Positions 191-60,733 of a DNA stretch of 64,000 nt are shown here, in pieces. Origin of the DNA: Treponema sp. J25 (GTDB lineage: Bacteria > Spirochaetota > Spirochaetia > Treponematales > Breznakiellaceae); contig NZ_PTQW01000033.1 in the NCBI RefSeq assembly GCF_004343725.1, forward strand, positions 1 to 64,000, read 5' to 3'. How positions within the stretch are numbered: the stretch's first letter is position 1; every line of letters begins with the position of its first letter. The position numbers were made by a program, and so were the translations under genes. Below the pieces are notes generated by a model that was given only the letters and a program-made list of their open reading frames with translations, did not search any database and had not been told where the DNA came from.

Positions 191-2275
191 CTATCCTGCC
201 ATGGATGATTCTTTCCGCTGGTGAGTCTCAGGAAGCACCCGTATTTCTTGAATAACCCGTCCACTTAATTCATCTACTCGACGGGCTGCAGTCGCTACGG
301 TCTCTGTATACTCCTTTATTTTATCAAGCCGTTCCAGGATCTGTTTGCTTCCCGCATGTTGTTCAAAAACAATCTCTTTTATTTTCTGTTGATGTTCCAT
401 AAGCTCTTGGACCCGAGAAAACACCTGGGCAAAACTCTCACTCGTTTTTTCTGCCTGAGAAGAACTCCGATCTATGAGGTCTTTTATCTCCTGTAAGAAC
501 CGGGCAATAGAAGTGGCCTGCCCTGCTACATGTTCAGCAAGTTTTTTTATCTCCGTAGCAACCACCGCAAACCCCTTGCCAAGGGCTCCCGCATGGGCTG
601 CTTCTATTGCCGCATTAATAGCCAGAAGGTTTGTTTGGTGGGCTATATCTTCAATCACCGCACTTGCCTCAAGAATAGTCACCGAACGATGGGCTATCTC
701 TTCCATGTAACGGGAAATACCTTGAATATTTTGTCGATTCTCCTCTGAAGCATTCATAAGATGCTCTGAAGCTGTAATAGTAGAAAGGACAAGGGTATTT
801 ATGTAATTTATATTTTCCACCATCTCCACAATATTCTGAGAAGACTCTTTCATAAAAAGGTGAAGTGCCGTAGTTACTTCATTAAGTTCATCAATAGGAG
901 CCTCACTTTGTTTCAGAGTTTCGATACTACGGACAGAAAACTCCTTGAGCATCTGAGAAAGATTTTCTTTATAACTATCATGGAGCCGCCGGATTTCCTT
1001 TTCCATGTAGTGACGACAATTCTCTGGTTTATTAAGGCCATTATAGATTGCCACTGCCATTTGTTCGCAGCTATTGTAACCACAGGCACTACAATTCAGA
1101 ATATCCCGGTCCGATTCTTTGTAGGTCTCTCGGTTAATCCGAGCGATAAAAGAGGCATCCGGTTCCCGAATAGTATTTTTAAAAACAGGGGACCGATCAA
1201 TATAATGACGAAGGTACAAACCGGGTTTCCAAAAATGTTTGATTGTAGTAAGCAATTTTCGCTGATTTCTATAGTGTTTCATGGCTTTTTGAGCCCGTTC
1301 TTCTATTCTTTTTTCTACTTTATCCAGATTTTTGCCTTGATTTAATGTTCCCGGTCCCCCATTACAACCCATCTCACAACTTAAACAATCCACAAGTTCA
1401 AAAATGGGAGCCTCTCCTGCCTGGATGGTAGCACCCAAATGAGCAAAATAATGGTACACTTCTGGGCCTTCTATTTTACGGGTTTTTCCTGAAATATCAG
1501 GAATATGACGGGCGACCGTTCGCATAAGCCCTCCCGGAGAAGAGAAGAGTACCGCCCGTTCTGCTCGGGGACCTTCAAATTCTACCTCTGGATATTGCTC
1601 GAGATCCAGTTGTGCTTCCTCTAAATACTGATGAATAGAACGAAAGGTAACGTTATAGTCCCCGATTCCCACCGCATCAAATTCCCGCCGTTTCGCATAA
1701 CAGGGAGAAATAGCCGCAAGTTTGTAGTCCCGGTATTCGGGGAAAAATTGTCTGATCATTTTAAAGGTATGCACCATGGGGCTATCCACAGGAGCAAGCA
1801 GAGAAATAAGTTCAGGGCGGTAGGTTTCGATAAAGCTTACAATCGCAGGACAGGGTTGGGCTATGATACAATCCGGTTTTTGTTCTTTTTTGTATTTCAG
1901 ATAGGAATAGACGGTCAGTTCTGCCCCAAAGCTCACATCAAAACAGGCCCGGACTCCCAGGCTTCGTAAAAAACCAGCTAGTTTCTTATACCGGCCTTCA
2001 AAACCACTGGCCGCAGCGGGAGCCACAATGGCAACAATTTTTTCTCCTCGCGTCAGAGCATCGCGAAAAGTCTGCCAATCATCTATTCCCACCCGAGCTC
2101 CATGGGTACAGGCGGCGAGGCAGGCTCCACAGCCAAGACAGAGATCACTATTTACTTTTACATAATCCCCTGAACCGTCGTTGCACATTTTAGCAGGACA
2201 GACACTAATGCAACGATGACAATTCACACATTTTTCTTCAATCACTTTAATAACTGGTCGTTGCTTTGGCAACAT
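191..2275 (-). CDS. [FeFe]-hydrogenase-like H-cluster domain fused to a chemoreceptor signalling domain
   Basis: Predicted soluble sensor of 694 residues. Two 4Fe-4S ferredoxin motifs come first (Cys16/19/22/26 and Cys46/49/52/56). An iron-hydrogenase large-subunit-like region follows (about 75-310) with three motif remnants: QPCPA around Cys142, SPCYAK around Cys192, and [11 protein letters not shown] with Cys297/300/304. A further Fe-S motif is Cys395-x2-Cys398-x4-Cys403-x16-Cys420. Residues about 480-680 form a methyl-accepting coiled coil with the hairpin tip [15 protein letters not shown]. There is no membrane segment or PAS domain. The first H-cluster motif has one Cys where catalytic enzymes usually have two, as in sensory hydrogenases, so sensing of H2 or redox state is more likely than turnover (inference). 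GGGAGG precedes the ATG. No hydrogenase maturation genes are in the window. Confidence 0.88.
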
Positions 2276-2520: not shown

Positions 2521-3294
2521 TTATTGCTCTATTTTCTTGAGTTCCTCTTTATCCTGCTTTAACGTCGTAGTAAAGAAATCACTTTGCGATGGCAGGGTAA
2601 GCTGCAACCCGTAAGTATAGTCGATTTCTACCGTTGCTTTGGGCATATCAATTTCAAGAAGATGCCCTCCAAAAGAAAGGTCCTTGGAAAGAAAATGCAG
2701 ATGGAACCCGGCCATGTTAACTCCTGCCATATATTCAGGGAGCCATACCCCTATGAGGGTCCCTTCGATGTTTTTTGCTTCGAAGGTAGGTTGATTCTTG
2801 GTTACTTCTACCAGTCGAGGGTAGGGTTTTTGCTGTTTTGGGACACTTCGGGTTTTCACATAGGCCGCCGTTCCTGTTATCTTGATAAGATATGGAATAT
2901 TCTTAGTAGGAAGGGCTTTGAGAATAGCGTCGTAAAGAGCCGCTAAAGAAGAGACGGGTTCGCTAATTTGTATTTTTTGATCGGTATCAAAAAAACTGAC
3001 CGCCGCAAAGGGGGTTTTGACAGTCTTTGCTACCTTGTATACCTTTCCATCCGCCTTTACCTGATAACAGGTCCCATTAAGGATAATCATCTCACCGTCA
3101 AGACCATCGAAGGTCCCGATACCGGTATCGCCATATTTTAACAGCGTTTCGATGGGCTCTACCCCATCGTAAACCCCCTCTTGTAAAGCCCCAAGGGTGG
3201 AAACCTGATAGATCACATCTCCTTTGCTCTGGGCAAACAGGGAGAAGCCGAAAACCACAAACAGTACCGCTGTCCAAAAGATGTTTCTCTTCAT
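2521..3294 (-). CDS. alsD: Alpha-acetolactate decarboxylase, exported form
   Basis: Converts alpha-acetolactate to acetoin, part of the pyruvate-to-acetoin/butanediol route. The 257-residue protein has an N-terminal signal peptide (hydrophobic about 5-20, ending FAQS). The decarboxylase body includes GTFDGLDGEM near residue 60 and the zinc-binding pattern His198-x-His200-x10-His211, matching the three histidines of the Bacillus enzyme. Length fits the family. GGAGG lies upstream of the ATG, and a promoter (TTGCCA, 16 bases, TATTAT) is divergent from that of the Cache gene. No acetolactate synthase is nearby. The signal peptide implies action outside the cytoplasm, which is unusual for an intermediate made in the cytoplasm. 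Confidence 0.9.
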   Translation of the reverse strand: MKRNIFWTAVLFVVFGFSLFAQSKGDVIYQVSTLGALQEGVYDGVEPIETLLKYGDTGIGTFDGLDGEMIILNGTCYQVKADGKVYKVAKTVKTPFAAVSFFDTDQKIQISEPVSSLAALYDAILKALPTKNIPYLIKITGTAAYVKTRSVPKQQKPYPRLVEVTKNQPTFEAKNIEGTLIGVWLPEYMAGVNMAGFHLHFLSKDLSFGGHLLEIDMPKATVEIDYTYGLQLTLPSQSDFFTTTLKQDKEELKKIEQ

Positions 3295-3424: not shown

Positions 3425-3931
3425 ATGATCAAAACAAGAAAGGCTATTCTTTTCCTTTGTGTGGCCCTGAGTGGAACCCTTCTTTTTGCCCAAACAAAGA
3501 CAAAGATCGATCCCGAAAAGGAAAAGAAGGTCATTGATCTTGTAAACAGGGGGATTGCATACATTAACAAGAATGGTATTGAACAGGCCGTAAAGGCCTT
3601 CCAGGATCCGAAAGGAGGCTTTATCGAAGGAGAATTCTACATCTTCCTGTATGACTTTGAAGGAAACGCCTTGGTCGTCGGAAGCAATACGAGCCTCATA
3701 GGAAAGAATTTGATGAATATTTCCAGTACCGATCGGAACGGGAACAAGGTCTATCAGGTAAAGGAACTTATCAATATTGCAAAAACGAAAGGAGAAGGCT
3801 GGTTCGAGTGGGCATGGCAAAACCCGGAAACGAAAAAATTTGGGCCTAAACGGGGCTATGCTAAACGAATCGACGTGCAAGGGAAATCCTACATGATTGG
3901 TTCTGGTTACTATGTAGGAGACGAGGAATAA
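3425..3931 (+). CDS. Secreted single Cache-domain protein
   Basis: Small exported sensor-like protein of 168 residues. A signal peptide covers about 1-22 (ending LLFAQ). The rest resembles a single Cache domain of the sCache_2 type: a helical lead (VIDLVNRGIAYINKNG), then the IFLYDFEGNALV strand, LIGKNLMN, GEGWFEWAWQNPETKK and a closing SYMIGSGYY. Such domains usually form the ligand-binding part of a chemoreceptor or histidine kinase. Here no membrane or signalling part is attached. The next gene, 48 bases downstream, is a membrane chemoreceptor, so the Cache protein may act as its periplasmic ligand-binding partner (inference). It has its own strong promoter and ribosome binding site. Confidence 0.8.
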   Translation: MIKTRKAILFLCVALSGTLLFAQTKTKIDPEKEKKVIDLVNRGIAYINKNGIEQAVKAFQDPKGGFIEGEFYIFLYDFEGNALVVGSNTSLIGKNLMNISSTDRNGNKVYQVKELINIAKTKGEGWFEWAWQNPETKKFGPKRGYAKRIDVQGKSYMIGSGYYVGDEE

Positions 3932-3942
3932 CAAGAGTCACA

Positions 3943-3965
3943 GGAAGGGGCTCTAAGCCCCCTCC
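3943..3965 (+). terminator. Hairpin between Cache gene and chemoreceptor (attenuator-like)
   Basis: Arms GGAAGGGGCT and AGCCCCCTCC form a 10-bp stem with one mismatch around a 3-base loop. Only a weak TTCAATCC follows, so termination would be partial. It could lower receptor expression relative to the secreted Cache protein. Confidence 0.4.
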
Positions 3966-3979
3966 TTCAATCCATCATT

Positions 3980-5785
3980 GTGAGAGCAGCGATGAAAATG
4001 TCCTTTAATAACATAAAACTATTTCAAAAACTATTAGCCATTCCGGTATTAGTAATATGTGTATTTTTGTTAGTGATAGGATTCTTCTATATCAACCAAA
4101 AGAATATTCAAAGAAGCATTGGAGGTTTTAACACCTCTTTAACTAATTATAAAAAGAGTTTGGAATTTTCAAAACTGCTCAACACTAGCTTTGAGCGGAT
4201 GCTACTCACTGCTCAATATTACACCTCGGGGATCCATTCCGAAAAACAAACGAAGCAGGATATAGAAGAGATAAAACAATCCCTTGAGGAACTAAAAAAA
4301 TCCTTTGAGTTTTTCGAAGGGATCATCAGTTCCGAAGTATATCAAAAGACAAAAGAGGCTATTAGCGTATATATTGAATTTTCCCATTACTATGTAGATT
4401 CCATCCTTATAGAAGCCTCTGTTGTGGCGGGGTATCTTCCTTCGCTTCACGAAAGTTTCATCGCTCTGGAAAGTATCGTAACTGAAAGCAGTACTCTTTT
4501 GGAACAGGATTTTCTTAAAACCAAGATAAGTCTTGAAACTCAACTTTCCTCTTTTGCCCGTTTTCTCATTATTGTATTAATCGTGAGTGCCTTTCTCTTC
4601 TTTGGTCTTTCTTTTCTTATTTCGAGAGCCATCATGAGGCGCATGCAAAAAATATTATTTTTTATGAAAGACCTTTCAGAAGGGAAACTTATCACCGAAA
4701 TTCAGGATCCCTATCATGATGAAATTGGAAGTATCATACAGCTTTCCCACGAAGTACGATCCTATTTAGTAACAATGGTAAGAAACATTTCTGACGTAAT
4801 CCGGAGTAATCGGGATATAGTGAACCGTCTTTCCAATCAAACCTCTGAGTTTACTTCTGCAATAGAAGAAATACGCAGTCAGACCGGTATTATGAATAAA
4901 AACACTGCGTTACTCCATGAACAGATAGATGCGGCTAGCATTGCAACAGGCGAAATAAAGAAAGAAATCGATGATATTGTTCATACTATCCAGGAACAAT
5001 TTAATCTTAATCAAAAAGCAGCTGAACTTATCACTCTATTTATTAATGATATTTATTCTATTTCTCAATTAACAAAAGAAAAGGTAAGCACTGCCCGGGA
5101 GCTTATTTCAAAAACATCTACTGCTGAAGGTGTTATAAATGATTATCATGTTTTAATGGAAGAAATGAAAAAATCCACTGAAGCAATTTCGGAAATGATC
5201 AGTATCGTTACCACCGTAGCAGAACAAACAAACCTCCTTGCTCTTAATGCGGCTATCGAAGCAGCCCATGCAGGAGAAGCAGGAAAAGGGTTTGCCGTAG
5301 TGGCTGATGAAATAAAAAAACTTTCGGAACTTACAAAAGAAAGGGTAGAAACAGCAAGTATTTCTTTACAAGAACTTATAGAAAAAATCCATCGAGGATC
5401 CGATTACAGCAAAGACACACAGCAAATAATCCTAGATATCTTGAATGGCATTAAAACTGTTACCGGCAGCATTGAAGAAATTGGTACTATTATGGAACGA
5501 ACTAATGAACAAAGCCTGCAAATTAAGGAGGCTATAGGGAAACTTCAAGAAATTAGCAAGCTTATCAATAGCTCTAGTTCCACTATCGATTCTAGAACAG
5601 CCCTCATCAACACCTCGATAGAGAAGATAAAGACCCTTTCCCTGGAACACAAAAACGGAATAGGAGAAATAACAATAGGAATTCAGCAGATTTTCGAATT
5701 AACGCCGATGCTTACCAATCTAAGCAAAACAAATCAAACTAATAATGCTATACTGGAAAAAGAAATAGCAGAATTTGTGATTTAA
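3980..5785 (+). CDS. Methyl-accepting chemotaxis protein, membrane bound
   Basis: Transmembrane chemoreceptor of about 600 residues that would pass ligand signals to the CheA-CheW array. Membrane segments lie at about 15-37 and 193-215. The periplasmic part (38-192) is helical and looks like a four-helix-bundle sensor, not a Cache fold. A HAMP-like linker follows (216-270), then the signalling coiled coil with hairpin [20 protein letters not shown] near residue 415. There is no C-terminal CheR-binding pentapeptide. The start is ambiguous: GTG at 3980 or ATG at 3992 (MKMSFNNIK), neither with a strong ribosome binding site. It follows the secreted Cache gene and is probably co-transcribed with it. 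Confidence 0.9.
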
Positions 5786-42448: not shown

Positions 42449-42913
42449 TTATACCCGTTCCCGGATAGCCACATTGATCTCGATCTTCCCCTGGGGAGTT
42501 TCCATGGGGACGATCAGGGCTTCTACCTCATGATCCGAAACCTCCATGTTATCTCCCGTAAAAAGAGCCGGCGGAGTAAGATCAAATCGAAAACCAAGAT
42601 CATGCAGTTTTGTTACCGCCTGGGCGGTAATCATGTTTGCCAGTTCCGTAATTGTTGCTTTTACCAGTTCGTCAAAATTTGAAAGCTGTTCCCCATTCAT
42701 GGCGGAAGCCACAGCCAGGGCGGTGGTTTTTGACATATCGAACATGACCCGACCTTCCACATCTCCTGCAAGACCTACCAGGGCTGCCACACCGAGGACC
42801 GGCATGGTCGTCGACTTTAAATATAGCTCTCCCCGACGAATATCGGCCTGCAACACTTCTTTAAGCACATTAAATGCCGCTTCTACAAAGGGGTTAATGT
42901 ATTCCACTCTCAT
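42449..42913 (-). CDS. cheX: CheY-P phosphatase CheX
   Basis: Dephosphorylates CheY-P to end the motor signal; the main CheY phosphatase type in spirochetes. 154 residues starting MRVEYINPFVEAAFNVLKEV. The family helix with the catalytic Glu/Asn pair lies in NFDELVKATITELANMITAQAV (E-x2-N). It lies 15 bases before cheY and 42 after the CheW/CheR-like gene. Confidence 0.93.
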   Translation of the reverse strand: MRVEYINPFVEAAFNVLKEVLQADIRRGELYLKSTTMPVLGVAALVGLAGDVEGRVMFDMSKTTALAVASAMNGEQLSNFDELVKATITELANMITAQAVTKLHDLGFRFDLTPPALFTGDNMEVSDHEVEALIVPMETPQGKIEINVAIRERV

Positions 42914-42955: not shown

Positions 42956-44308
42956 TCATTTTGCCTTACTATATAAGGCAACCGGCGCTTTACCAATGAA
43001 TTGCCATTCTTCAGCCGGCAATTCCTCATGACTCCCTATTAATAAAAGGCCACTGGCCTTTAATTTTTCATCAAAATCGGAGAGAATCTTACTTTGTTCC
43101 TCAGGGCTCATAAACGAAAGGATATCCCGGGCCACAATAATATCCAGGTCCACATAGGGATTATTGTTACGAATATCATGGTACTCAAAAAGGATTGCGT
43201 CTTTAATGACCTGGTTAAAGCCATAGCCATACTTCCCTTTCACCAGGAAGGGTCGACAATACTCCGGAAACACCTCGTATTCAAAGGCCATAGTCGGGGC
43301 CGAAGAAATAGCCAACAGGTCACTATCGCTTGCCCAGATTTTTATCCGATGTTCGGGGTAGCGTTCCCGCAGTATACAGGCAAACGAGAAGGTTTCAAAG
43401 CCCTTTCCACACCCGGGATTCCAGACGGTGATGGTTTTACCGGGCATATCCGGTAACAGGCTGCGCACCGCCGCCGCATAGTCATCGCCCCAGAACTGAT
43501 CCGTATAGGGTGAATAGAAGGGCTTTAAAAAGGCCTCCGCATCATCCAGATCCTTTAATTGCACCGCATCGCTGGTCTGCCGTTCCTTTTTCCATTCTTC
43601 ATAGCGGGCCAGAACCCACTTTTCGTTCATCGCTGTGGTGGCAAAATGTTTCAACGCAAAGAGGGTTTCCTTAATGAAATTGACCTCTAGCGGAACGGAC
43701 TGATTCGGACCTTCCCGACCCTCGCCTCGGGCGGGCGTAGTTCCTTCCATTGCCGGTGGAGTATAGAGGGGGAGCCCCTCTGCTTCAATACTGGTTCGCT
43801 TTCGTTCTTCTTCCTGAGAAAAAATCCGATTTACATCAAGGATAATATACAGGCGTCCTTGATGTTCCACCACGCCTTTTATATACCGAATGTTGATATC
43901 CCCAAATATTGGGTGAGGAGGCTGAATTTGTTCAGAGGAGACCCCTACGACTTTGTCGATGGAATCCACAATAATGCCGTAGATTTGTTCATCCTTTCGC
44001 ACAATAAGGAGATTCTCCATCGCATTTTCATCTTTTTGTTCTGCCGGCAGATGAAAGAAGATACGAAAATCAATGACCGGGATTATCTCGCCTCGGAGAT
44101 TATACACCCCTCGCACAAAGGCGGCCGTATTGGGAACATAGGTAAACCGATTAGCCTTGGCGATTTCCTTGACATTCATGATGTCAATACCATAGTCTTT
44201 TCCTGCCAGAGAAAAGGTAACCATTTTAAAATCTATCTTGAGGATCCGCTCTTGTTTTACTTCTCCCCCATTTTTATTTTCCTGTACCTGCAGTTCCTGT
44301 CCACTCAT
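42956..44308 (-). CDS. cheW: CheW adaptor fused to a CheR-like methyltransferase domain
   Basis: Couples receptors to CheA. 450 residues. The CheW domain (about 24-165) has MVTFSLAGKDYGIDIMNVKEI and FVRGVYNLRGEIIPVIDFR. A linker leads to a CheR-like domain (about 210-445) with VWNPGCGKGFETFSFACIL at the SAM site, IWASDSD, and DIIVARDILSFM where CheR has its CRNVLIYF motif. From memory, CheW-CheR-like fusions are known in spirochetes and take part in unusual receptor arrays. Whether this domain still methylates is not clear: core glycines remain, but the flanking sequence is divergent. Operon position between cheA and cheX. Confidence 0.88.
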   Translation of the reverse strand: MSGQELQVQENKNGGEVKQERILKIDFKMVTFSLAGKDYGIDIMNVKEIAKANRFTYVPNTAAFVRGVYNLRGEIIPVIDFRIFFHLPAEQKDENAMENLLIVRKDEQIYGIIVDSIDKVVGVSSEQIQPPHPIFGDINIRYIKGVVEHQGRLYIILDVNRIFSQEEERKRTSIEAEGLPLYTPPAMEGTTPARGEGREGPNQSVPLEVNFIKETLFALKHFATTAMNEKWVLARYEEWKKERQTSDAVQLKDLDDAEAFLKPFYSPYTDQFWGDDYAAAVRSLLPDMPGKTITVWNPGCGKGFETFSFACILRERYPEHRIKIWASDSDLLAISSAPTMAFEYEVFPEYCRPFLVKGKYGYGFNQVIKDAILFEYHDIRNNNPYVDLDIIVARDILSFMSPEEQSKILSDFDEKLKASGLLLIGSHEELPAEEWQFIGKAPVALYSKAK

Positions 44309-44321
44309 GGAGCGCCTCCCT

Positions 44322-46727
44322 CTAGCGCAGTATGGCTTCCCGGCGTTGCCGTTCTTCCCGTTCTTTTCGTAACCCTAACTCGAGCAGCTGGCTTACATCG
44401 ATGATGAGAGATACCGACCCATCCCCTAAGATAGAGGCGCCGGCAATACCTGGCGAGGCGGTAAATTGATCCCGCAGGGGTTTAATGACCACATCTTCTT
44501 CCCCAATAAGGCTATCTACCATAAGGCCCATCTTTTTTTCCGCCGTCCCCACGATAACCACAAAGTAATAGTCCCGCTGTTCATCGGTTTTAATACCAAA
44601 CAGTCGATTTAGCCGAAGCAGGGAAATGACATCGTTACGTACATTGAATACTTCGTAGTTGTCTATCATGCGAATGTCCGATGGCTTTATCCGGTGGCTT
44701 TCGATAACCGAGGTAATAGGAATAGAGTAGATTTCCTTTCCCACCCGAACAAGGAGCCCCTGAATAATGGCCAGCGTAAGGGGAAGTTTGATGATAAAGC
44801 GGGTTCCCCGTCCCCGTTCTGAATGGACCGTTACCGTTCCATTCAGTTTTTCGATCTGACGCCGCACCACATCGAGGCCCACACCACGGCCTGAAATATT
44901 GGTAATTTGCTTTGCCGTAGAAAAACCGGGCTCAAAAATAAGATTAAAGGCTTCCACATCGGTAAGGATCTTGTTGGGATGGATAAGGCCCCGCTCTATC
45001 GCCTTTGCCCGAACCGCTTCTACATCGATTCCCTTTCCATCGTCGGCGATTTCAATGATGATCATGTTCCCTTCGTTACTTGCCTTAAGGAGTACCGTGC
45101 CGGTTTCATTCTTGCCCGCCGCACGACGATCCTCGGGAGATTCTATACCATGATCAATGGAGTTACGGACCGAGTGCATGATGGGATCTAAGAGATCTTC
45201 GATTACCGACTTATCCAGTTCGGTTTCTTCCCCCTCTATAACAAGGTTCACCTTTTTATTAAGGCTCTTGGAAAGGTCCCGGACCAGCCGGGGGAAACGA
45301 TTAAAAATCTGGCTGATGGGGACCATGCGGATCCGCATCACCCCTTCCTGAAGTTCTCCCGAAATTCGCCCCAGGTTTTGGGCGGTCGAGCGGAATTTGT
45401 TAACATGGGCCTTCAGGTTCACCTCGATGGGATCAAAGAGGGTAAAGAGATCTCCATATTTCTCCAGGATTTCTTTGCGGATTTCCTTTACGGTCCGACC
45501 CTTCTGGATAGCATCCAGATATTCCGGAAGAGTATCGAAGAGATCCTTGATTTTTTCCCGATATATCGTTTCTATACCCTGCAGTTGGGTCATGAGTTCC
45601 CCAAACTGGTTCGATATCTGATTGAAGGTCGCCTTGGTGATTACCGTTTCAGAAACCAGGTTCAGCAGGTTATCGATCCGACGGGAATCGACCCGCAGAA
45701 TTGACCCCATGTCTTTCAGATTCTTCTTTTCGCCCTCCTCAGCTTGATCGCCATTCTGGCTTTCTTTTGATTCAAGCTTTGCCGTTTCAAGCACCTGGGA
45801 AGGAGAAGGGGCTATGTCTTTCTTACTGGTTGTTGGAAGAGGTTCTCTTTGCGTATCGGTCCGCGGTGGCTTTTCCGCATCTCCACTAGGAATCGAAGCT
45901 GTCGTCGGAACAGCGGCTTTTCCCGGTACGGATACTTCTTTTGTTAATTCTTCCACCGTAGCAGTGATGGTAACGTCCGGAATTTGAACGACCCGTTTAA
46001 TCTCCTCCGCCGAGTGATGGGTCGCAAGGTAGTATTCCACCACCGGGAAAAAATTATCTTCGTAGAGTTGCTCAAAATCGGGGTTGGTTTTCAGAATCGT
46101 TCCCTTGTTCTTAAGGGCCGCAAAAACCTGGATTCCCCCCACCGTGTTCATGACGTTATCTTCGTTAAATGTCACCGTGACCTTGTAGATCCCCTGCCCC
46201 TCCGCCGCGTGTTGCTTCATTTCGAGGATTTCGTACTCGGAAACAGAAGCGGTGGCAACCTTGGGCCTTGCCTCTTCCTTGGGCGGAACGGATGCGGCGG
46301 CCTTCTTGGGAGAAGACCTCTTTGTCCCCTCGGCAGGTAAAAGGGCGGTAAGACGACCTTCTATCCCTGAGATATCTTCACGATAGACTTCCCCCTGCAT
46401 CCGGGCATTGAGCATGGCCTTGATGATATCGATAGCCTGGAGCAGTATATCGATGACCGATTCATCGACCGTAATATTCCCCGATCGAATTGCATCAAGG
46501 ACATCTTCTACAAGATGGGTAAAATGGGCCAGTTCTTGCATTTCCACCGTAGCAGCCCCGCCCTTCAGAGTATGGGCAGCCCGGAAAATCTCATCTACCG
46601 CATCTCGATTTGCCCCTTCTTGCTCTAACACCAGAATATTCTGTTCCAGTGTTTCCACCTGCATTTGGGCTTCACTAAAGAAGTCCTTCAGAAGTTCCTC
46701 GTTATTTGGATCTAAATAGTCACTCAT
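44322..46727 (-). CDS. cheA: Chemotaxis histidine kinase CheA
   Basis: Receptor-controlled kinase. 801 residues from ATG 46727 (MSDYLDPNNEELL); a TTG at 46751 adds 8 doubtful residues. The Hpt domain (1-110) has phospho-accepting His52 in AAHTLKGG. A P2-like region lies at about 165-260 and a Pro/Ser-rich linker to 335. The dimerisation domain starts ILRVDSRRIDNLLNLVSE (about 343) and is longer than in E. coli. The HATPase (about 490-650) has HSVRNSIDHGIE, ADDGKGID and GRGVGLDVV. The CheW-like domain runs 655-790. No Shine-Dalgarno sequence is apparent. First gene of the che operon. Confidence 0.95.
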   Translation of the reverse strand: MSDYLDPNNEELLKDFFSEAQMQVETLEQNILVLEQEGANRDAVDEIFRAAHTLKGGAATVEMQELAHFTHLVEDVLDAIRSGNITVDESVIDILLQAIDIIKAMLNARMQGEVYREDISGIEGRLTALLPAEGTKRSSPKKAAASVPPKEEARPKVATASVSEYEILEMKQHAAEGQGIYKVTVTFNEDNVMNTVGGIQVFAALKNKGTILKTNPDFEQLYEDNFFPVVEYYLATHHSAEEIKRVVQIPDVTITATVEELTKEVSVPGKAAVPTTASIPSGDAEKPPRTDTQREPLPTTSKKDIAPSPSQVLETAKLESKESQNGDQAEEGEKKNLKDMGSILRVDSRRIDNLLNLVSETVITKATFNQISNQFGELMTQLQGIETIYREKIKDLFDTLPEYLDAIQKGRTVKEIRKEILEKYGDLFTLFDPIEVNLKAHVNKFRSTAQNLGRISGELQEGVMRIRMVPISQIFNRFPRLVRDLSKSLNKKVNLVIEGEETELDKSVIEDLLDPIMHSVRNSIDHGIESPEDRRAAGKNETGTVLLKASNEGNMIIIEIADDGKGIDVEAVRAKAIERGLIHPNKILTDVEAFNLIFEPGFSTAKQITNISGRGVGLDVVRRQIEKLNGTVTVHSERGRGTRFIIKLPLTLAIIQGLLVRVGKEIYSIPITSVIESHRIKPSDIRMIDNYEVFNVRNDVISLLRLNRLFGIKTDEQRDYYFVVIVGTAEKKMGLMVDSLIGEEDVVIKPLRDQFTASPGIAGASILGDGSVSLIIDVSQLLELGLRKEREERQRREAILR

Positions 46728-46775
46728 GACGATGATAATCTTTATACACAAATGAACTTACGTCAAGGCTTTTTG

Positions 46776-58114: not shown

Positions 58115-58798
58115 TTAGGTTTCTGGAGGCTGTGTTTTTTTCTCCGCCGCTGCGGCCCCAGAAGCTGCATCTTCCTTCTCGGAGTCGGTAAAAAACAGGA
58201 TCGGCCCTTCCTGAGGCCGAGAACTTAAGTTTTTCCGATACGAGAGTTCTTGATCTTGTATCATGGCAACCGAAGGACCTTTGATTCGCTTTAAAAGGAC
58301 CTTCCCGGTTTTTACAAAAAAGAAAATTTTTCTTGCCAGGGACCCTCCTACATCAAACGAAACAAGGGGAATTCGTTCTGTTTCAAGGTACTCAAACACA
58401 AAATCAATATTTGTGTCCGCAATGTTTTTTCGACCCTCATCATTCCGATGAATAACAGAGGCCCCTCCAAAAACCTTAGCCTGAATCTTTTTCCGATTCG
58501 CGCCCCGCTTTAACAGTTCATTGATAAGGACTTCCATCGCGTACATCCCATAGCGGGCACTTTCCTCAAGGAAGTCCTGGGGGTTTACTCTTCCTCCCTG
58601 CATCGGATGGGGCCGAAAGGCGCCAGGAAGCATAAAATGGTTCATGCCTCCCAGTCCCAGGGTTATATCATAAAGGACTACGGCGATACAGGACCCTAAA
58701 ACAGTAGAAATAATAATATCCTCTTCTGAAACCAGGTATTCCCCCGGATTAATAACCACCACCGGCTGACGAAAGGCATGAAGTTGATGGGTATACAT
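58115..58798 (-). CDS. cheD: Chemoreceptor glutamine deamidase CheD
   Basis: Deamidates glutamines on chemoreceptors and can help CheY-P dephosphorylation through CheC-type partners. 227 residues. The catalytic Cys is in STVLGSCIAVVLYD and the His in GLGGMNHFMLPG; KVFGGASV and VGGSLARKIFF follow. A C-terminal tail of about 40 residues, rich in Glu, Ala and Lys, exceeds the usual length. Its neighbour upstream is an atypical receptor-like protein, a possible substrate (inference). Confidence 0.92.
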   Translation of the reverse strand: MYTHQLHAFRQPVVVINPGEYLVSEEDIIISTVLGSCIAVVLYDITLGLGGMNHFMLPGAFRPHPMQGGRVNPQDFLEESARYGMYAMEVLINELLKRGANRKKIQAKVFGGASVIHRNDEGRKNIADTNIDFVFEYLETERIPLVSFDVGGSLARKIFFFVKTGKVLLKRIKGPSVAMIQDQELSYRKNLSSRPQEGPILFFTDSEKEDAASGAAAAEKKTQPPET

Positions 58799-58945: not shown

Positions 58946-60733
58946 TCATTCAAAAAAGGTAATCGACCCTTCTTCCACACTCACCGTATCTTCTTCGTTC
59001 AGTAGGGCAGTCTCCGTTCCGACAAGTTCATGGGCCACCTGTTTATGGGCAAAAATAGTAAACCTTTCTATTATTTCCCGAAGTCGCTGAGAATGGAGTT
59101 CCTGCATTTCCTCTGCCTCTGATTCCTTCGTCAAACGGGAGTGTTTCGATTCTTCTATAAGTGAAGTAAGGTAGTGTTTTAAGTTCTGCACATTTTTTTC
59201 TAGCAATGAGAGATTTTCGAAATCCTTTTTTTGATTTTGAACTATCGCAAGGAATTCAGAAGAAAACAGCGAGAAATGTCGAACCCCTTCCATAAGATTA
59301 TCAGAGAAACTTTCAAGCTCATGGTATAAATTCTCTAATTGTGCCTTGGCACTCCACAAGAGTTTCGATTCCTCTTCAAAATTCTGAAAAAAGACCGTTA
59401 TTTCCTGGTTAGTCGTTTGAGTAAAGGCATGTATGCTTTCGTGGGCATCAAAAAGATCGCGACCTATTGTTTCTATAAGCTCACTCATAGACATAATAGT
59501 ATTTTTTATAGAACGCAAAACAGGATATTTTGCGATTTCAATCCGGGCCGCCATATCAACAGTCTTAAGACGTTGCACGAGCCGATCCTGTTTTTTAAAA
59601 TAGGTTAACAGGGTAGAAAGACGAAACGTTATTTGCCCCCCCATAGAAACCAGTTGTTGTCGTTCACGAATAAATTGTTCTAACTGGGTACCTAATTTTT
59701 CAATAAGGATATAAATCTCTTTTAAGTTTCTTATTACTCCTCCTTGTTCTCCCTGGCTTAGATCCTGCCGTACAATTTCAGAACGAATCTTTTCCCCTAT
59801 TTGTAAAATTCCTTCTATTGATTCTCTGCTTCTCCTGAATACTTCAACACAGCGAGAAATACGATGTTCTACATCCTCTACAATCGAAAGAGCAATAGAA
59901 AGACACTGTCCCTGAAAAACCTGGAGATCCGCCTCTTCAAATTCATTCGTCTGGGAGATCTGAATATATTCCTGCATTAAGAGTAACACATGTTCTAGAG
60001 ACTGACGAAGGATATCCTGTTCTTGCACCGTTTCCATGGTAGCAAGAACGGGTCCCCGGATTTTCTCGGCCTTTTCAATCAGGGTTTTCATCTTTTCGGA
60101 GATAGCAAGAATTGGTTCCCGGAGAGAAAAAAAAAGCCCTTCTATTTTTTGATCTAATCCCGAAAAGAGTTCTGCCTGGAAGCGATCCAGGTCTTGCAGT
60201 TTTTGATTATATACCGAAAGGTGCTGTAAAATGGTGGCCGATTCTTGCATAATGTGCCGGGTCGTTTCCAGGGTCTGATCGGTAATTCGGCGTAATTCAT
60301 CGGTGATCACCGCAAAACCCTTGCCTGCCACACCAGATTTTATAGCACCAGTCAGGGCATTAATTGAAACCAGTTCCATTTCATCCGCATCATATTTGAT
60401 GTTTTCTATTTTTTTCCCTAAATCCGTAAGTTGATTCACCGCCATCTGGAGTTGTTGATAGAGGGCTACACTTTTCGCATTTACCTTTTTAAAATCCTCT
60501 CCCGCGATGGTATAGATATTTTTAACTTTGTTAAAAAGGGTCTGTATTGCCTTTTCGAAGCTTTCTCCATTACAAATACGTTCCAGGGAATGCCGGACTG
60601 TGGCAAGACTGTTCTCCATTTCTTTAACAAAAATAGGAGCCCTTTCTCCTAAAGAAAGAAAGACCTGCTCTGAGTCCATCACTACCTGATGTATGTTTTC
60701 TGTGATACTTACGGCAAGCTGTTCGTGGTCCAT
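58946..60733 (-). CDS. Atypical soluble chemoreceptor-like coiled-coil protein
   Basis: 595 residues, almost entirely helical, with no membrane segment. Residues about 110-155 (MELVSINALTGAIKSGVAGK, then GFAVITDELRRITDQ) match the chemoreceptor hairpin tip in altered form: SINALTGAIKSG replaces [13 protein letters not shown] second, weaker similarity is at about 383-425 (LKTVDMAARIEIAKYPVLRS). The hairpin lies near the N-terminus, unlike normal receptors, and a long coiled coil follows. It may be a cytoplasmic receptor or an array scaffold. It is next to cheD. The C-terminus ends GSITFFE, not a CheR-binding motif. Confidence 0.7.
   Translation of the reverse strand: MDHEQLAVSITENIHQVVMDSEQVFLSLGERAPIFVKEMENSLATVRHSLERICNGESFEKAIQTLFNKVKNIYTIAGEDFKKVNAKSVALYQQLQMAVNQLTDLGKKIENIKYDADEMELVSINALTGAIKSGVAGKGFAVITDELRRITDQTLETTRHIMQESATILQHLSVYNQKLQDLDRFQAELFSGLDQKIEGLFFSLREPILAISEKMKTLIEKAEKIRGPVLATMETVQEQDILRQSLEHVLLLMQEYIQISQTNEFEEADLQVFQGQCLSIALSIVEDVEHRISRCVEVFRRSRESIEGILQIGEKIRSEIVRQDLSQGEQGGVIRNLKEIYILIEKLGTQLEQFIRERQQLVSMGGQITFRLSTLLTYFKKQDRLVQRLKTVDMAARIEIAKYPVLRSIKNTIMSMSELIETIGRDLFDAHESIHAFTQTTNQEITVFFQNFEEESKLLWSAKAQLENLYHELESFSDNLMEGVRHFSLFSSEFLAIVQNQKKDFENLSLLEKNVQNLKHYLTSLIEESKHSRLTKESEAEEMQELHSQRLREIIERFTIFAHKQVAHELVGTETALLNEEDTVSVEEGSITFFE

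Follow-up and report, generated by a model that had tools for sequence, protein, structure and literature searches.

H2 sensor/transducer proteins of termite-gut treponemes were reportedly described by Ballor, Paulsen & Leadbetter in 2012 (Microb Ecol 63:282), and H-domain proteins among them are said to have been proposed to act in methylation/chemotaxis pathways. The receptor described here comes from the same phylum and habitat range, and its gene is a separate orthologue. In HydDB, group C2 of the [FeFe]-hydrogenases is already listed as ‘Chemotactic (putative)’ (PMC5037454), i.e. a sensory-type H-domain linked to a methyl-accepting output and considered a putative H2 sensor. The receptor is alike and no difference in layout is apparent, although the HydDB table does not specify a fused or a separate MCP. 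With an H-domain and an MCP domain in one chain, it would by its layout belong to C2.

Like the receptor, TmHydS and TamHydS carry two N-terminal clusters, an H-domain without relay cysteine and a C-terminal cluster with the same Cx2Cx4Cx16C spacing (PMC8163306). TamHydS, a group D enzyme, has a bound H-cluster and is active in H2 turnover (PMC8163306); exposure to H2 leaves its C-terminal cluster unreduced, and the structural change reported to be induced by H2 is independent of the redox state of that cluster (PMC13104023). The outputs differ: PAS in TmHydS, none in TamHydS and an MCP hairpin in the receptor. The eukaryotic Nar1/CIAO3/NARF proteins illustrate that the H-domain fold and its [4Fe-4S] sites may occur in the absence of the diiron cluster that HydEFG makes. 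Nar1, which has been connected with oxygen sensitivity, keeps the hydrogenase fold but for want of maturases has no diiron cluster (PMC12621388). It is, however, a cluster-trafficking protein without a signalling domain, whereas the receptor has one, and we do not claim Nar1 membership for the receptor. With soluble cytoplasmic chemoreceptors (E. coli-type hairpin), the receptor shares the MCPsignal hairpin, the conserved tip and the presence of Che proteins in the genome; it differs in that membrane anchor, periplasmic domain and HAMP are all missing and that its input is an Fe-S module.

Architecture of the receptor and its family

The window, i.e. the whole stretch of 64,000 nucleotides analysed here, covers the opening 64 kb of contig C33 in a spirochaete genome of 3.18 Mb that is 99.9% complete. 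The gene and the parts of its product are as follows.

191..2275, minus strand: hydrogenase-like/MCP fusion gene (ORF of 694 aa, ATG start)
2096..2251, minus strand: two-[4Fe-4S] ferredoxin domain, residues 9-60 (Pfam Fer4 at 9-28 and 39-60)
1352..2041, minus strand: [FeFe]-hydrogenase-like H-domain, residues 79-308 (Pfam Fe_hyd_lg_C, PF02906, E=4e-31)
1016..1093, minus strand: C-terminal cluster Cx2Cx4Cx16C, formed by C395, C398, C403 and C420 (Pfam FeS, PF04060, 393-421)
203..1015, minus strand: signalling coiled-coil hairpin, with helix 421-561, turn 562 and helix 563-693 (AlphaFold2 model)
521..655, minus strand: hairpin tip, the predicted CheA/CheW contact (conserved tip residues)

The ORF is intact, and a GGGAGGG ribosome-binding motif lies at 2283-2289, 7 nucleotides upstream of the ATG. 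In the ferredoxin domain, the cluster cysteines are C16, C19, C22 and C26 for one cluster and C46, C49, C52 and C56 for the other. A Foldseek search matched the fold of the input half to [FeFe]-hydrogenases with E 8e-18, for example CbA5H, CpI and the D. desulfuricans enzyme. In the AlphaFold2 model (30 homologues; mean pLDDT of 85.5, best in the input half), a compact input domain extends up to residue 420, and the hairpin helix starts directly after C420, with which the ligands of the C-terminal cluster end. Pfam MCPsignal covers residues 508-667 (E=1e-27), and the hairpin-tip residues T548, N554, A555, G563, G566, F569, E575 and L579 are invariant among homologues. Hydropathy revealed no membrane helix in the fusion protein, which peaks at 1.24 over 19 residues where the transmembrane MCP encoded nearby reaches 3.16. 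Thus, the ferredoxin motifs, altered hydrogenase-like region, additional Fe-S motif and chemoreceptor coil claimed in the original prediction were recovered by Pfam and motif alignment, and the claimed absence of a membrane segment is borne out by the low hydropathy peak. The fusion protein is a soluble receptor in which a hydrogenase-like Fe-S sensing half is joined to a methyl-accepting hairpin.

A scan of GTDB genomes returned 520 relatives, and the 80 that were kept are nearly all from Treponema and other spirochaetes, many of them from bins resembling termite-gut and rumen metagenomes. When 393 spirochaete genomes were searched, about 80 proved to carry strong homologues with the same layout, defined by 50-81% identity over the input and E below 1e-130 and mostly encoded by ORFs of ~690-760 aa. 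Every homologue scanned from another genome (30/30) has PF02906 and PF00015 in one chain. The direct link to chemotaxis, put forward as unusual, is therefore real as a fusion but not unprecedented, being covered by HydDB C2 and widespread in spirochaetes: the receptor is a real protein of an already known kind. What is added here is the family-wide conservation of the ligands, the swapping of outputs and the dissociation of the family from HydEFG. Two close homologues (L107 and L117) are located on contigs labelled as Geobacteraceae and Acidobacteriaceae MAGs, reflecting either horizontal transfer or a binning error.

Cluster ligands and pocket

The H-cluster motifs were aligned with those of two group A, one group B and one PAS-type H-domain protein of the same genome, together with relatives.

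1844..1861, minus strand: L1 motif AQPCPA, with ligand C142 kept and P141 at the relay-cysteine position (alignment)
1682..1708, minus strand: L2 motif SPCYAKRRE, with ligand C192, K195 and E198, and S190 at the M353 position (alignment)
1349..1390, minus strand: L3 motif (CxxGCNGG), with ligand C300, bridging C304 and an extra C297, and L298 at the M497 position

The motifs are altered as had been claimed: compared with group A, the receptor has QPCPA for TSCCP in L1, SPCYAKRRE for MPCTAKKYE in L2 and a CxxGCNGG-type sequence for EVMACRGGCIGG in L3. Yet all four [4Fe-4S]H ligands (C142, C192, C300 and the bridging C304) are present, and P86 and K195 are retained along with C192, C300 and C304 among the residues of the H-cluster site. 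Description of the site as a ‘degenerate H-cluster’ was rejected, since every ligand is kept. The 16 cluster cysteines (four in the H-domain, eight in the ferredoxin domain and four in PF04060) are invariant in 60/60 homologues. The same is true of C297, beside the L3 ligand, which is absent from most relatives with other output domains, and C31 is found in 59/60.

The group A relay cysteine (CpI C299) is missing and replaced by P141, a position occupied by Ala in TmHydS and TamHydS. At the site of TamHydS E252, a valine position in group A, the receptor has Leu (L250), and the E289 position was read as D296; the E252-E289 proton path of group D was sought in the aligned receptor and was not found. 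With P141 and L250 in place, neither described proton path is therefore present. The features of sensory groups C and D, the Cx2Cx4Cx16C cluster and the absence of the relay cysteine, were both found. S190 and L298 are the substitutions reported in TamHydS at the M353 and M497 positions, and we counted this likeness to group D in favour of an H-cluster in the receptor. In the H-domain tree, groups A and B as well as the PAS sensors are separate from the receptor.

Maturases and the nature of the signal

The original prediction had proposed looking for hydEFG elsewhere in the genome, and a complete cluster was located on contig C6. There, hydF (full-length) is grouped with an aspA-like lyase gene, hydE and hydG (C6:91497-96612; starts at C6:91497 for HydF, C6:94163 for HydE and C6:95260 for HydG), aspartate-ammonia-lyase genes being known parts of hyd operons (PMC11736057). 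The organism can thus make the H-cluster, and, as its genome also holds four other H-domain genes (two group A, one group B and one PAS-type sensory), H2 sensing is possible in it.

Across the family, HydF was found in 48 of the 80 homologue-bearing genomes versus about 83 of 313 others, an association that may be phylogenetic. It is missing from the remaining 32, and 28 of these are also without HydE and HydG as judged by three models (HydE, HydF, HydG) and a fourth, HydF-specific Pfam model. These 28 maturase-minus genomes span at least 9 genera and 3 families and include two genomes (G157 and G232) of two contigs each that are 99% complete; within a single genus (g16), 5 homologue-bearing species have HydF and 16 do not. 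Failure of the model to detect a divergent HydF was considered and rejected: the HydF tetramer domain was detected in 0/28 maturase-minus genomes by profile search, while the search readily picked up HydF-positive members of that genus. Ligands and pocket are identical in 23 maturase-minus and 37 other members, the latter nearly all HydF-positive, and no residue signature separates the two sets at the ligands or main pocket positions. Position 306 is G in 33/37 versus 6/23 maturase-minus members, and surface positions also differ, a contrast confounded by phylogeny.

As a control, we inspected ordinary hydrogenases of the maturase-minus genomes, which would be expected to degenerate had these genomes merely abandoned the H-cluster; no such decay was seen. 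Group B enzymes there keep TSCC, GPCxxK and CxGGC, and strong group A matches occur in about 11 of the 28; three of these matches were read and all have TSCCP[AG]W. These observations suggest an unrecognised maturation route or a diiron-free function for the group A and B proteins of such genomes. Since ordinary hydrogenases persist without HydEFG, the absence of maturases does not single out the receptor, and the maturase result does not decide what the receptor senses. For the same reason, the argument that missing maturases prove the absence of H2 sensing was rejected. Three group A genes, L132 (G262), L133 (G063) and L134 (G138), have intact TSCCPxW/MPCxAK/MACRGGC motifs in genomes that are 97-99% complete and have no detectable HydE, HydF or HydG; group B genes (L126-L131 and L216-L228) are found in many more genomes with no detectable HydE, HydF or HydG.

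We favour, with a probability of roughly one half, a soluble chemoreceptor whose input is a sensory [FeFe]-hydrogenase of group C/D type and in which H2/redox signalling to CheA is based on the H-cluster; occupancy by the H-cluster, H2 as the signal, coupling to CheA and taxis are what we infer. HydEFG would equip the H-domain with an H-cluster. The redox state of the cluster chain would then be set by H2, or by reduced ferredoxin acting via the two N-terminal clusters, and the resulting change in the input domain would be passed through the helix that begins right after C420 into the hairpin, the tip of which would switch bound CheA and thereby the bias of the flagellar motor. The last electron step is doubtful in the receptor because the C-terminal cluster of TamHydS is not reduced by H2; by analogy, the role of this cluster is likely structural rather than electronic. 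Of the H2/redox receptor originally proposed, the soluble architecture, the ligands and hydEFG stand, so that neither the loss of all ligands nor the absence of maturation genes, both named there as refuting it, was seen; but H2 is not established, 28 of 80 genomes being maturase-minus with an unchanged pocket and no known proton path being conserved.

These last points weigh towards a redox or O2 chemoreceptor lacking the diiron subsite, a serious contender if not one on which we would bet. In such a receptor the H-domain would hold the [4Fe-4S] cluster only, ferredoxin/NADH poise or oxidation would be relayed to CheA, and H2 would not be the signal. The spread of maturase-minus genomes over genera and families, the sameness of ligand and pocket positions whether or not maturases are present, the removal of the known proton paths by P141 and L250, and the precedent of eukaryotic Nar1 with its H-domain fold and no diiron cluster all agree with it. 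Against it, the maturase-minus genomes also retain group A and B hydrogenases with TSCC, xPCxxK and CxGGC motifs intact, a maturation route of another kind is possible there, and the genome of the window organism has HydEFG of its own. More tentatively still, these receptors might constitute the bacterial signalling counterpart of Nar1, the diiron subsite having been lost or never needed, with the Fe-S chain and the clade-specific C297 serving as a general redox input. Were that so, chemoreceptors, kinases and c-di-GMP enzymes would all have been fitted with a redox input, and group C2 would be mislabelled as putative H2 sensors.

It is improbable that the H-domain is degenerate or purely structural, its clusters stabilising the protein while something else is sensed via the linker region. 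The linker (311-385) and coiled-coil arms are only modestly conserved (mean column identity of 31-55%), and several hydrogenase-specific residues are gone from the sensor groups, which could fit such a role; however, the H-domain and ferredoxin region (70-77%) are the best conserved among the input and linker parts, and no ligand varies across the 60 members. An assembly or frame artefact joining two unrelated genes, which the position of the gene at the contig start (C33:191) might bring to mind, is vanishingly improbable because the same fusion recurs in all 30 scanned homologues from independent genomes, single-contig ones included.

The H-cluster-based reading and its redox competitor make the receptor relevant to whether H2 serves as a signal for group C [FeFe]-hydrogenases in the first place. 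Its hydrogenase-like input is coupled directly to a motor output readable under the microscope, and receptor-bearing species with and without maturases, even within one genus, provide a natural comparison for H2 versus redox. If H2 sensing holds, it would explain how termite-gut and rumen treponemes might find H2 gradients.

Outputs, partners and neighbours

Among distant homologues, the same input is found on MCP (L170, L172), hybrid histidine kinases (L169, L174, L177), HATPase (L166-L168) and PAS/GAF kinases (L176). Such swapping of outputs is as expected of a sensor input. Fusions of a spirochaete hydrogenase-like input to GGDEF-EAL (c-di-GMP) outputs were also seen (L171, L173, L175, L178, L183). 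In the HATPase-fused paralogues L166-L168 (G358, G373 and G294), the L2 lysine is replaced by N, E or I while the cluster cysteines are kept, and in one of the three the relay position is again occupied by a cysteine (SQCCP).

Chemoreceptors usually lack fixed neighbours. No conserved gene neighbourhood was found for the receptor, the commonest neighbour occurring in 10 of 77 loci; that none links it to H2 metabolism counts against the favoured reading. Domain searches in the window identified the following chemotaxis genes.

44322..46751, minus strand: CheA histidine kinase (Hpt, P2, dimerisation, HATPase and CheW domains)
42956..44308, minus strand: CheW-CheR fusion, adjoining CheA and CheX
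42449..42913, minus strand: CheX phosphatase
58115..58798, minus strand: CheD receptor-modifying protein

CheA is likely the downstream partner of the receptor, and the CheW-CheR fusion its likely partner for coupling and methylation. Beside CheD, a large coiled-coil protein (58946-60733, minus strand) gave a sub-threshold MCPsignal match and is possibly an atypical soluble receptor. The receptor gene is adjoined by one for an alpha-acetolactate decarboxylase (2521-3294, minus strand, E=3e-82) with an apparent N-terminal signal peptide (MKRNIFWTAVLFVVFGFSLFAQ). At 3425-5785 on the plus strand, a small exported-looking Cache protein is encoded immediately ahead of an MCP. This MCP has two membrane helices, and no Cache domain was found in it; the two proteins may form a split receptor. 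Elsewhere in the genome (G000:C32:4859-9397; L003, L004), the PAS-type sensory H-domain gene is followed directly by a SpoIIE-like phosphatase ORF, with a group B hydrogenase close by, as would be expected for HydDB group C3.
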